DNA of 64,000 nt from Marinobacter sp. C7. GTDB taxonomy: Bacteria > Pseudomonadota > Gammaproteobacteria > Pseudomonadales > Oleiphilaceae. The translations under genes were made by a program, and so were the position numbers. Below the pieces are notes generated by a model. The model saw only the letters and a list, made by a program, of their open reading frames with translations, did no database searches and was not told where the DNA came from. The stretch covers positions 1-64,000 of the forward strand of contig NZ_JAKQZH010000003.1 in the NCBI RefSeq assembly GCF_022343555.1, given 5' to 3'. Positions 46,690 to 49,281 of the stretch are shown here, one piece after another. Numbering within the stretch: the stretch's first letter is position 1; each line of letters opens with the position of its first letter.

Positions 46690-47478
46690 ATGCTGCAGCA
46701 CCCCCAGTTTGACCCGGTGGCCATTTCCCTGGGCCCCGTCAAGATTCACTGGTACGGCCTGACCTACCTGGTCGGTTTCGTTGCCGGATGGTGGCTCGGC
46801 CGACTGCGGACCCGCAAACCCTGGTCCCCGGTCACCGAAGAGCAGATGGGCGACCTGCTGTTCTACCTTGCCCTGGGCGTCATTCTCGGTGGCCGGTTCG
46901 GTTACGTACTGTTCTATAACTTCGATACCTTCCTGGCCGATCCCCTGTGGCTGCTGCGGGTCTGGGAGGGTGGTATGTCCTTCCACGGTGGCCTGCTGGG
47001 CGTGATATTCGCCATGTGGTGGTATGGCCGCAAGGTCGGGTCCGGCTTCTGGCGCCTGGCGGACTTCGTGGCACCCCTGGTGCCGGTCGGTCTGGGGGCA
47101 GGCCGGATCGGCAACTTCATCAACGGCGAACTCTGGGGCAAGCCCACGGATGTATCCTGGGGCATGGTATTCCCGCAGGCCCCCGACAGCCTGGCCAGAC
47201 ACCCGTCCCAGCTGTACCAGTTCGCCCTCGAGGGCGTTGCCCTGTTCGTGATCCTGTGGTGGTTCTCTGCCAATCCCCGCCCGCGCATGGCCGTCTCCGG
47301 CCTGTTCCTGGTGTGCTATGGAATTTTCCGGTTCCTGGTGGAATTCGTGCGCCAGCCGGATCCGCAACTCGGCTACCTGGCCTTTGACTGGCTGACCATG
47401 GGGCAGGTCCTGTCCACGCCCATGATTCTTGCGGGCGCAGCCCTGATGTTTATCGCTTACCGGAGAAATGCCGAATGA
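46690..47478 (+). CDS. lgt: Prolipoprotein diacylglyceryl transferase
   Basis: First enzyme of lipoprotein maturation (262 aa, seven helices). It transfers diacylglycerol to the lipobox cysteine. The catalytic region includes H99 (MSFHGG) and R139 in the Lgt signature [19 protein letters not shown]. It overlaps thyA by four bases (ATGA), the same coupling found in many proteobacteria. Confidence 0.97.
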
Positions 47479-48314
47479 AAGCCTACCTCGATCTGATGCA
47501 AGACGTCGTCGACAACGGATTCGACAAGGGCGACCGCACCGGCGTCGGCACCCGCTCGGTATTCGGACGCCAATTGCGGTTCAACCTGCAGGAAGGCTTT
47601 CCTCTGGTGACCACCAAGAAAGTCCACCTGCGCAGTATCATCTACGAATTGCTGTGGTTCCTGCGCGGTTCCACCGACAACAATTGGCTGAAAGAGCGCA
47701 AGGTTTCCATCTGGAATGAATGGGCCCTGGAAGACGGCGATCTCGGCCCGATTTACGGCAAACAATGGCGCAGCTGGCAGTGCCCGGACGGTCGCGTGGT
47801 GGACCAGATCAGCGAGGTCATCGACCAGATCCGTAACAAGCCGAACTCCCGGCGCCTGATCGTCTCCGCCTGGAACCCGGCGGAGCTGCCGGACGAGTCC
47901 ATCAGCCCCCAGGACAACGTCCGCGAGGGTCGCATGGCGCTGGCTCCGTGCCACTGCCTGTTCCAGTTCTACGTGGCCGACGGCAAGCTCTCCTGCCAGC
48001 TGTATCAGCGCAGCGCGGACCTGTTCCTGGGTGTGCCGTTCAATATCGCCTCCTACGCCTTGCTGACACACATGATCGCCCAGCAGTGTGACCTGGATGT
48101 GGGTGAGTTCGTGCATACGTTCGGTGACTGTCACCTGTACCAGAACCACCTGACCGACGAGATCGTATTCGAGCAGTTGAAGCGGGAGCCTCGCTCTTTG
48201 CCCAGGCTGGTGATCAAGCGGAAGCCTGAGAGTATCTTCGAGTATGAGCTCGAAGACTTCGAGTTTGAGGGATATGAACCTTATCCTGTGATCAAGGCGC
48301 CTATTGCTATTTGA
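47475..48314 (+). CDS. thyA: Thymidylate synthase ThyA
   Basis: Makes dTMP from dUMP with methylene-tetrahydrofolate (279 aa). The catalytic Cys is in [12 protein letters not shown]; substrate residues lie in [19 protein letters not shown] and GDCHLYQNH. Compared with E. coli ThyA (264 aa, from memory) there is an insertion of about 15 residues, [15 protein letters not shown], just before the catalytic loop. It produces dihydrofolate, which FolA, 450 bases downstream, reduces. Confidence 0.96.
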
Positions 48315-48356
48315 CCTCGAGTCTGGGATCGCGGTCCTCTTGTTTTGGAGTCGGCA

Positions 48357-48461
48357 GGGCAGCGGGTGGGGCGTTCCGAAAAACGCTGTGAATACGTCCG
48401 TGTACGCTTGGCTCCGCCATCCATGGCTCCGCACATTTTCGGAACGCCCCACCCGCTACCC
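48357..48461 (-). repeat. Stem-loop repeat, copy A (long perfect inverted repeat with conserved loop)
   Basis: Arms at 48361-48382 and 48436-48457 are perfect 22-bp complements; three more pairs follow after one mismatch. The 53-base loop read on the minus strand begins with 26 bases (48410-48435) identical to the loop start of copy B. The arms of the two copies are different sequences, yet each is self-complementary. The element lies 43 bases after thyA and has no T run, so it is not a standard terminator. Confidence 0.85.
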
Positions 48462-48516
48462 TTCGTTCAGGCCAAAGAGATCGAAGATCAAAAGGGCCGG
48501 GCCAATTCGCCACAAC

Positions 48517-48552
48517 TCATACTGCCCTGAATTTTCATACTGTCCTGACTTT
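48517..48552 (+). repeat. 18-base tandem repeat between the two stem-loops
   Basis: Bases 48517-48534 and 48535-48552 are adjacent copies, 16 of 18 identical (TCATACTGCCCTGAATTT and TCATACTGTCCTGACTTT). Nothing else recognisable lies between copies A and B of the stem-loop element, and no protein gene is supported in 48315-48768. Confidence 0.7.
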
Positions 48553-48602
48553 TTAGGCGGACCGGGTTTTAATTCAGGATAAGCTGACTGAGTGCTCGGA
48601 TC

Positions 48603-48714
48603 GCCATCGGGCGGGGATGCCTCTCCAAAAATGTGCGGAGCCATGGATGGCGGAGCCCAAGCCGCGCAGGGACGCCTTGAGGCGTTTTTTGGAGAGGCAT
48701 CCCCGCCCGATGGC
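48603..48714 (+). repeat. Stem-loop repeat, copy B (opposite orientation)
   Basis: Arms at 48603-48631 and 48686-48714 are perfect 29-bp complements enclosing a 54-base loop. The loop opens with the same 26 bases as copy A (48632-48657) and holds a small inner hairpin, ACGCCT-TG-AGGCGT. The region is open in the folA reading frame and the loop reads MCGAMDGGA, which could mislead start calls. It ends 54 bases before folA. Confidence 0.85.
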
Positions 48715-48768: not shown

Positions 48769-49281
48769 ATGAGAAAAGCTTTGATAGTAGCCATGTCCCG
48801 AAACCGGGTCATCGGCCGGAACAACAAGCTGCCGTGGTACCTCCCGGGAGACCTGCGTTACTTCAAGCAGGCGACCATGGGTAAGCCCATTATCATGGGG
48901 CGGAAAACCTGGGATTCCATTGGCCGGCCGCTGCCGGGCAGGATGAACGTGGTAATTTCCCGGAATGAAAGCTGGGAAGCCCCGGCCGGCACGGTCGCCG
49001 CAAGGTCACTCAATGATGCCCTGGTGAAGGCAGCAGCCCAGGCTGAACTGGAAGGCGGTGAAGAGGTAATGATTATCGGTGGCGGTCAGATTTACGCCGA
49101 GGCATTGCCGATGGTGGATCGCATGTACATCACCCAGGTGCACGCCGAAGTGGAAGGGGATGCGTTCTTTCCGGAAGTGAACTGGGACGAGTGGGAAGAA
49201 ATCGGACGGGAGGATTTCTCCGCGTCCGATAACAATCCCTACGACTACAGCTTCGTGGTCTACCAGCGCCGCGCCGATTAA
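48769..49281 (+). CDS. folA: Dihydrofolate reductase FolA
   Basis: Reduces dihydrofolate to tetrahydrofolate (170 aa). The active-site acid is D28 in LPWYLPGDLRYFK; NADPH-binding segments are IMGRKTWDSIGRPLPGR and MIIGGGQIYAEAL. ATG 48769 is fixed by GGAGGAG at 48760-48766; the frame stays open upstream through the repeat. Its stop codon shares bases with the stop of the convergent helicase gene (TTAA). Confidence 0.96.
   Translation: MRKALIVAMSRNRVIGRNNKLPWYLPGDLRYFKQATMGKPIIMGRKTWDSIGRPLPGRMNVVISRNESWEAPAGTVAARSLNDALVKAAAQAELEGGEEVMIIGGGQIYAEALPMVDRMYITQVHAEVEGDAFFPEVNWDEWEEIGREDFSASDNNPYDYSFVVYQRRAD

Follow-up and report, generated by a model that had tools for sequence, protein, structure and literature searches.

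A dispersed family of TwoAYGGAY-type stem-loops with site-private stems and predicted CsrA-binding loops in Marinobacter

The closest known family to the elements described here is TwoAYGGAY (Rfam RF01731, clan CL00106), which is listed, in the available text of one source, as probably an RNA and probably not cis-regulatory, with gammaproteobacteria among its taxa (PMC2864571). As far as the accessible part of another source goes, it has already been proposed to bind CsrA and contains tandem G-A pairs in one stem (PMC4333381). TwoAYGGAY and the present family are alike in that two small hairpins with GGA loops, A-Y-GGA-Y in TwoAYGGAY, lie inside an outer stem; however, the external stem of TwoAYGGAY is described, in the portions of the sources at hand, as not well conserved, whereas the stems of the present family are nearly perfect and private to their sites. 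In these portions there is no mention of dispersal in tens of copies, of perfect stems private to a site, of tail-out pairs or of the swapping of loops, and an experimentally examined function of TwoAYGGAY RNAs was not found in the literature searched, as far as its accessible text extends. Hairpin loops with A(N)GGA for CsrA are likewise displayed by CsrB/CsrC and RsmX/Y/Z, as in the present family; these RNAs carry many sites each and occur in few copies, whereas the elements described here carry two sites and occur in many copies. Dispersed intergenic palindromes, often in opposed pairs and mostly between tandem or convergent genes, are known as REP/BIME elements and CGTC-tagged REPs, with stems of 5-13 bp and loops of 2-20 nt according to the available text (PMC3733652). 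The present family resembles REP/BIME in consisting of dispersed intergenic palindromes in opposed pairs, but it differs in its longer, site-private stems and in having no requirement for a Y1 transposase.

The window analysed here is a stretch of 64,000 nucleotides from Marinobacter sp. C7, for which the initial annotation had described two opposed stem-loops between thyA and folA with an identical loop core and differing arms. Coordinates and arms bear this out (Table 1), as does the 26-mer TGTGCGGAGCCATGGATGGCGGAGCC common to both loops, which is found on the - strand in copy A and on the + strand in copy B, and the two copies occupy the 454 bp that separate thyA from folA. The arms of copy A comprise 27 nt with a perfect inner 22 bp and, as the single departure from Watson-Crick pairing, a wobble that reads U.G on the core strand, and those of copy B form 29 perfect bp; the loops measure 53 nt in copy A and 54 nt in copy B, with 20 nt and 22 nt, respectively, between the two GGAs. 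Two instances of the 23-base core are present in the window (at most 3 mismatches), compared to a mean of 0.00 and a maximum of 0 in 100 shuffles, and folding as RNA gives copy A z-scores of -8.7 (- strand) and -8.5 (+ strand), and copy B z-scores of -10.0 (+ strand) and -11.2 (- strand).

Table 1. Features of the thyA-folA region, in positions of the window; the start of folA was placed at the ATG following a GAGGAG motif.
Feature	Position	Strand	Basis
thyA, thymidylate synthase, upstream neighbour	47475-48314	+	Pfam PF00303
Copy A	48356-48462	core on -	inverted repeat and fold
Copy A, 3' arm of long stem	48356-48382	-	inverted repeat
Copy A, hairpin P3 TACACGGACGTA, loop ACGGA, predicted CsrA site 2	48393-48404	-	sequence
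Copy A, hairpin P2 GCCATGGATGGC, loop ATGGA, predicted CsrA site 1	48416-48427	-	sequence
Copy A, 5' arm of long stem	48436-48462	-	inverted repeat, fold
Spacer of 140 bp joining the 5' ends of the opposed copies	48463-48602	no strand	
Copy B	48603-48714	core on +	inverted repeat and fold
Copy B, 5' arm of long stem	48603-48631	+	inverted repeat, fold
Copy B, hairpin P2 GCCATGGATGGC, loop ATGGA, predicted CsrA site 1	48640-48651	+	sequence
Copy B, hairpin P3 GCGCAGGGACGC, loop AGGGA, predicted CsrA site 2	48664-48675	+	sequence
Copy B, 3' arm of long stem	48686-48714	+	inverted repeat
folA, dihydrofolate reductase (DHFR), downstream neighbour	48769-49281	+	Pfam PF00186

In both copies an external stem encloses the two hairpins. 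The terminal loops of copy A (AUGGAU and ACGGAC) fit AYGGAY; those of copy B are AUGGAU and AGGGAC, the latter without a Y at its second position. Measured against the RF01731 gathering score of 43 bits, copy B reached 30.7 bits (E 0.47) and copy A was unlisted up to E 5. MicroRNA hairpin models outscored RF01731 on copy B and on L190, all of them far under their own cut-offs, as may happen with any long hairpin. The best RF01731 match in the genome of strain C7 scored 42.6 bits, and all matches at E<=0.001 (9/9) coincided with matches to the covariance model of the present family; among 23 relatives, 15 had matches at E<=0.001 and 8 above the cut-off. One copy in L242 reached 49.1 bits. Copies A and B are thus outside the formal TwoAYGGAY family by cut-off and, judging from their predicted architecture, of the same kind, and the matching small RNA that the initial annotation had proposed to look for exists in the form of this Rfam family. 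New here are the high-copy dispersal, the private stems, the swaps and flips of loops and the close tail-out pairs; the literature searched yielded no account of such a scattered form whose stems are private.

Compared with Rfam at gathering thresholds, the window yielded only RNase P RNA (bacterial, RF00010; 14779-15128, + strand, 336.7 bits) and no match of the CsrB/RsmZ type. CsrB was found in 0/14 genomes; RsmZ had no match above the cut-off in 14 genomes and one below it in 1/14, a 36.6-bit match in the C7 genome that was rejected because it resembles a terminator hairpin and lacks GGA on the strand read. RsmY was found above the cut-off in 0/12 genomes and at E<=0.001 in 7/12, with several of these matches being 29 nt long or less.

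Several other known classes were considered and fit less well. CGTC-tagged REPs came into question because many relatives start with CGTC before P2, but their rules for stem, loop and tail do not fit the whole element. Constant terminal inverted repeats as in a MITE were not found, the arms being private and the flanks carrying a weak signal only, and neither was the T-run of an intrinsic terminator, the first ten positions past the outer arm being C- and A-rich with 4-35% T. The partnership with a REP-type transposase raised by the initial annotation did not hold up either, as the Y1 transposase PF01797 is present in 35/61 genomes of the genus and absent in 26, including copy-rich ones such as G001, G005, G008 and G024, which have 27-59 core copies and no PF01797 match. 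As a separate observation, the strongest matches to IS200-type Y1 transposases (22 and 3) occurred in G004 and G012, which are among the genomes poorest in elements, yet G015 also has strong Y1 matches along with 68 model matches.

Copies A and B belong to a dispersed repeat family with dozens of copies per genome. The core pattern had 39 matches in the C7 genome (at most 3 mismatches) as opposed to 1 for the reversed control pattern, and with at most 2 mismatches it was found in 25/25 genomes of the genus compared to 1/13 genomes of other genera. A scan of GTDB contigs with the core returned at least 116 stretches, and among the matches listed (80) all were Marinobacter records, in agreement with the recurrence that the initial annotation had described. 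The scan of the genome and its relatives with a covariance model, which it had also suggested, revealed an abundance of further copies: the model, made from 100 aligned copies, gave 64 matches in the C7 genome and 3 to 113 per genome in 23/23 genomes of the genus, with 58 to 113 copies in 17 of these and 3-12 in five, all counts being lower bounds, since 14 to 150 candidates were scored per genome and copies near the model were favoured. Beyond Marinobacter, the model matched in 3/11 genomes from other genera of the order and in 45/274 genomes of a class-wide sample that included C7, 44 of these 45 being from other genera. The same plan was seen in 25 of 29 loci viewed from the class-wide genomes (stem 23 to 51 bp, loop 51-54 nt); in the remaining four no stem was located by the stem finder, which covered the middle of the locus only. 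Across the family, stem lengths mostly fall within 23-37 bp, with a maximum of 51, and the constant loop is about 51-58 nt long.

The arms are private to their sites. At the 57 loci of the C7 genome whose arm was read, 57 different 27-base arms were found; the closest two agree in 23/27 bases, with mostly the inner end held in common, and within the outer 15 bases the agreement between copies of this genome is at most 11. Over 160 copies, each of the inner 20 pairs is nevertheless Watson-Crick in 95-100%, against an expectation of 30-79% at pairs 8-19 for independent arms. In the 100-copy alignment, standard pairs make up 99.1% of 3700 pair cells, double-changed cells number 958 compared to a shuffled mean of 246, and the covariation score is 0.702 compared to 0.163 in shuffled and at most 0.131 in slid alignments; pairs changed on both sides amounted to 27 compared to 23.5 in shuffles, and further pair types in this alignment were no higher than in shuffles (88 compared to 85.9; 145/500). 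Among 45 ortholog pairs that have the same orientation and similar arms, compared with a register shift of up to two bases allowed, 85 positions had changed on both sides from Watson-Crick to Watson-Crick, 27 had changed on one side, and two had changed on both sides with one imperfect state. The long stem is hence nearly free of mismatches, more so than closing the loop requires, and the arms covary around a constant loop, as the initial annotation had anticipated; its alternative of identical arms is at variance with the different arms at every locus read.

It also appears that one particular strand is the one that folds. On the core strand, pairs 9-23 of 154 copies include 82 G.U and 12 A.C, counted at fixed positions after 4/163 copies had been set aside and repeats of one stem merged; as ortholog copies are not independent, the C7 genome alone (19 vs 4) provides a count free of that problem. 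The excess recurs in other families (35 vs 11) and, at 36:8, among copies that run antisense to the genes on either side, is lowest in sense copies between tandem genes (19:9), and G.U is almost missing among the inner 20 pairs. Since transitions in a single arm lead to G.U on one strand and to A.C on the other, the G.U excess indicates folding of the core strand and argues against both a symmetric DNA structure and a strand-blind correction of the arms. It is therefore well supported that the selected object is the single strand bearing the core, be it RNA or single-stranded DNA, and the selection on such a structure put forward by the initial annotation finds support in both the wobble counts and the covariation.

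The loop contains two short hairpins, P2 and P3, each with A(N)GGA. P3 is CANGGANG in 100/100 aligned copies and its stem covaries, and the P2 stems differ in other genera while the P2 loop stays the same; the Marinobacter core copies were retrieved by a P2 pattern, so that the invariance of P2 there is by construction, whereas P3 lies outside this pattern. Counted directly on loops of up to 66 nt, A(N)GGA is found at both places in 201/205 distinct short loops and the distance from GGA to GGA is 20-22 nt in 197/205. The second position of the motif is N family-wide (A-N-GGA); exceptions to the motif are a copy of the C7 genome (L240) with P3 lacking GGA, and L255 as well as one copy of L204 with P2 lacking the A. 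All 23 genomes searched contain csrA (PF02599). According to the available part of one source, CANGGANG, and CATGGATG itself, is an Rsm site in P. putida (PMC6849547), and the accessible text of another gives for CsrA family proteins an ANGGAN hexaloop, the SELEX sequence RUACARGGAUGU, and bridging by a CsrA dimer of sites 10-63 nt apart with an optimum above 18 nt (PMC7652899). By motif and spacing, the loop looks like a CsrA/RsmA site in a predicted dual-site arrangement.

With regard to genomic placement, the ratio of convergent to divergent gaps is 65:32 for those with copies and 64:96 in the background (p 3.5e-5), which was made up of gaps in Marinobacter loci with a length of at least 120 bp, some of which may contain copies as well; the genes were called with a custom-built ORF scorer and the placement counts refer to deduplicated copies. 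Of the copies lying between tandem genes, 62 have the core strand in sense and 60 in antisense orientation. The bias towards gene 3' ends considered in the initial annotation consequently exists as a preference for convergent over divergent gaps, but not as a strand preference between tandem genes. Antisense copies keep their stems, with a mean of 1.03 imperfect pairs of 23 compared to 0.76 in sense copies (p 0.21), and since they also keep the G.U excess, read-through from neighbouring genes is not a general source of the RNA. A promoter signal was not found in the 5' flank (toward vs away, p 0.12) and none was significant in the spacers of pairs; scores in the direction of the element tended, if at all, to be higher on the 3' side.

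Among close pairs under 400 bp, orthologs included, 23/24 are arranged tail-out (left -, right +), the remaining one is - -, and the +,- arrangement does not occur among these 24. The same holds for 10/10 close pairs of the C7 genome (contigs C25, C36 and C47) and for the pair in the window. The spacers of such pairs measure 35-196 bp and are unrelated in sequence. A mobile dimer with a fixed spacer was ruled out, as the 24 spacers share one ortholog pair and one local repeat only. Within the spacer of one pair (L104, 7430-7615) lies a further inverted repeat of ~35 bp, seemingly an intergenic repeat of another kind.

Arms and loops can evolve separately. L026 and L039 have nearly identical arms around loops of 139 and 58 nt, and several further ortholog pairs exchange loops of 54, 57/58 and 135-139 nt. 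Long forms with loops of 133-139 nt and extra hairpins were seen in L011, L017, L026, L029, L073, L074, L092, L104, L127 and L143, with the second GGA hairpin being altered in those that were read, and another long form (L123) has an insert inside P2. A second hairpin class, with perfect stems of 21-36 bp, a mostly G-rich 5' arm and loops of only 18-22 nt without two GGA hairpins, was noticed in L107, L037, L132, L073 and L123. Inversion was seen in 43 of the 153 ortholog pairs; 8 of the 43 have left arms that agree at 19/24 bases or more, compared to 42/3000 random pairs, and the inverted pair L015/L074 has 23/24 left-arm bases in common. Judged by these sequences, flips in place do occur, and the majority of inverted ortholog pairs look like separate events or long drift. 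In same-orientation ortholog pairs with a third-position divergence of 0.2-0.3, the arm divergence is at most 0.15 in 11/14, with paired changes in place, and a single site (L024, L054, L134) accounts for the 3/14 pairs above 0.30. At a third-position divergence of 0.4-0.5, 68 pairs show all degrees of arm divergence (at most 0.15 in 10, 0.15-0.30 in 21, above 0.30 in 37), so that gradual paired drift and block replacement are not separated. At one site with well-kept flanks, L047 carries a different, flipped palindrome compared to L091 and L126. Orthologous sites without a core made up 35/386 rows; at least two of the eight viewed are not really empty (L123, a long form, and L035, with its own arm), and the others viewed have no homologous intergenic sequence for comparing the origin of the arms at insertion. 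As for carriage, blastn gave no match for copy B in phages and plasmids or for one relative in plasmids. An IMG/VR contig of 16.7 kb (L277) contains an exact match to the 27-base P3-plus-tail pattern and could be either a piece of host DNA or a true carrier.

From our point of view, the preferred reading as a CsrA-binding RNA has to be weighed against three others. One could imagine a mobile element whose hairpin, formed by single-stranded DNA, is the recognition site of a transposase or recombinase, as in REP/RAYT, IS200/IS605 or integron attC; the strand-specific fold would then serve mobility, and gene orientation would for this reason be random. The random orientation between tandem genes (62:60), the occupation of the same intergenic sites either way round (43/153 ortholog pairs inverted) and the mostly different arms of inverted pairs (8/43 alike at 19/24 or more) would all suit such an element, and G.T is the best-tolerated mismatch in DNA as well. 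However, Y1_Tnp is present in only 35/61 genomes and missing in copy-rich ones, the ends are not strongly conserved and the spacer not at all, mobility alone needs neither the retention of arms in 11/14 close ortholog pairs nor their paired changes, and an exact CsrA loop with the appropriate spacing would be a coincidence. We hence regard this explanation as unlikely.

Less probable still is an element of gene ends, acting as a transcription terminator or a stabiliser of mRNA 3' ends for convergent genes without any role of CsrA: a stem that is very stable on both strands and the enrichment in convergent and depletion in divergent gaps (65:32 vs 64:96) fit well with it, but no T-run follows the outer arm, the A/T run that Marinobacter copies have at the inner stem end is absent in many copies of other genera, a two-way terminator has no need of a G.U asymmetry favouring one strand, and A(N)GGA is left unexplained. 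Covariation could, in principle, also arise without selection if template switching during replication copied one arm onto the other, and such a neutral quasi-palindrome would account for inner 20 pairs almost free of G.U and for more double than single changes in the 45 ortholog pairs (85 vs 27, 2 mixed). Strand-blind correction, however, predicts equal numbers of A.C and G.T, where 82 vs 12 were observed, and in 11/14 close ortholog pairs the arms are conserved to a level of divergence well below that of third positions, so that this already disfavoured explanation appears very improbable.

Given their motif and spacing, the binding of CsrA by an RNA is the best reading of these loops, and we assign a probability of about 0.6 to the copies being TwoAYGGAY-type structured RNA elements that act as dispersed CsrA binding sites. 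As such, transcription of the core strand would allow the private stem of 25-30 bp to close and to display the two small A(N)GGA hairpins 20-22 nt apart, which one CsrA/RsmA dimer could bridge; together, the copies would constitute a dispersed set of CsrA sites that serve as a sponge or as local CsrA anchors at gene ends, with the long stem insulating or stabilising the RNA or permitting excision of the element by RNase III. The main weakness of this CsrA-binding reading is the random orientation relative to tandem genes, which, together with the missing promoter signal, leaves room for a role of single-stranded DNA in mobility, alone or in addition. Further points against it are a long stem freer of mismatches than the closing of a loop calls for, the RF01731 results for copies A and B under the gathering score, with a microRNA hairpin model ranking higher on copy B, and the number of further pair types, which did not exceed that in shuffles.

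One could further speculate, if only tentatively, that the copies constitute a genome-scattered CsrA buffer in which each copy is a self-contained two-site trap with a private stem and a loop refreshed by exchange or inversion. The idea of a CsrA sponge is directly testable in this genus, since many of its species have around a hundred copies and 5/23 genomes have 3-12. Overall, the family connects one class of intergenic repeats with a likely function as protein-binding RNA, and it illustrates cleanly how stems that are private to their sites can be under structural selection. If the CsrA buffer is real, it would replace or supplement the usual few RNAs of the CsrB/RsmZ type, with similar sets in other gammaproteobacteria, and a repetitive element would be kept by selection as a regulatory RNA.
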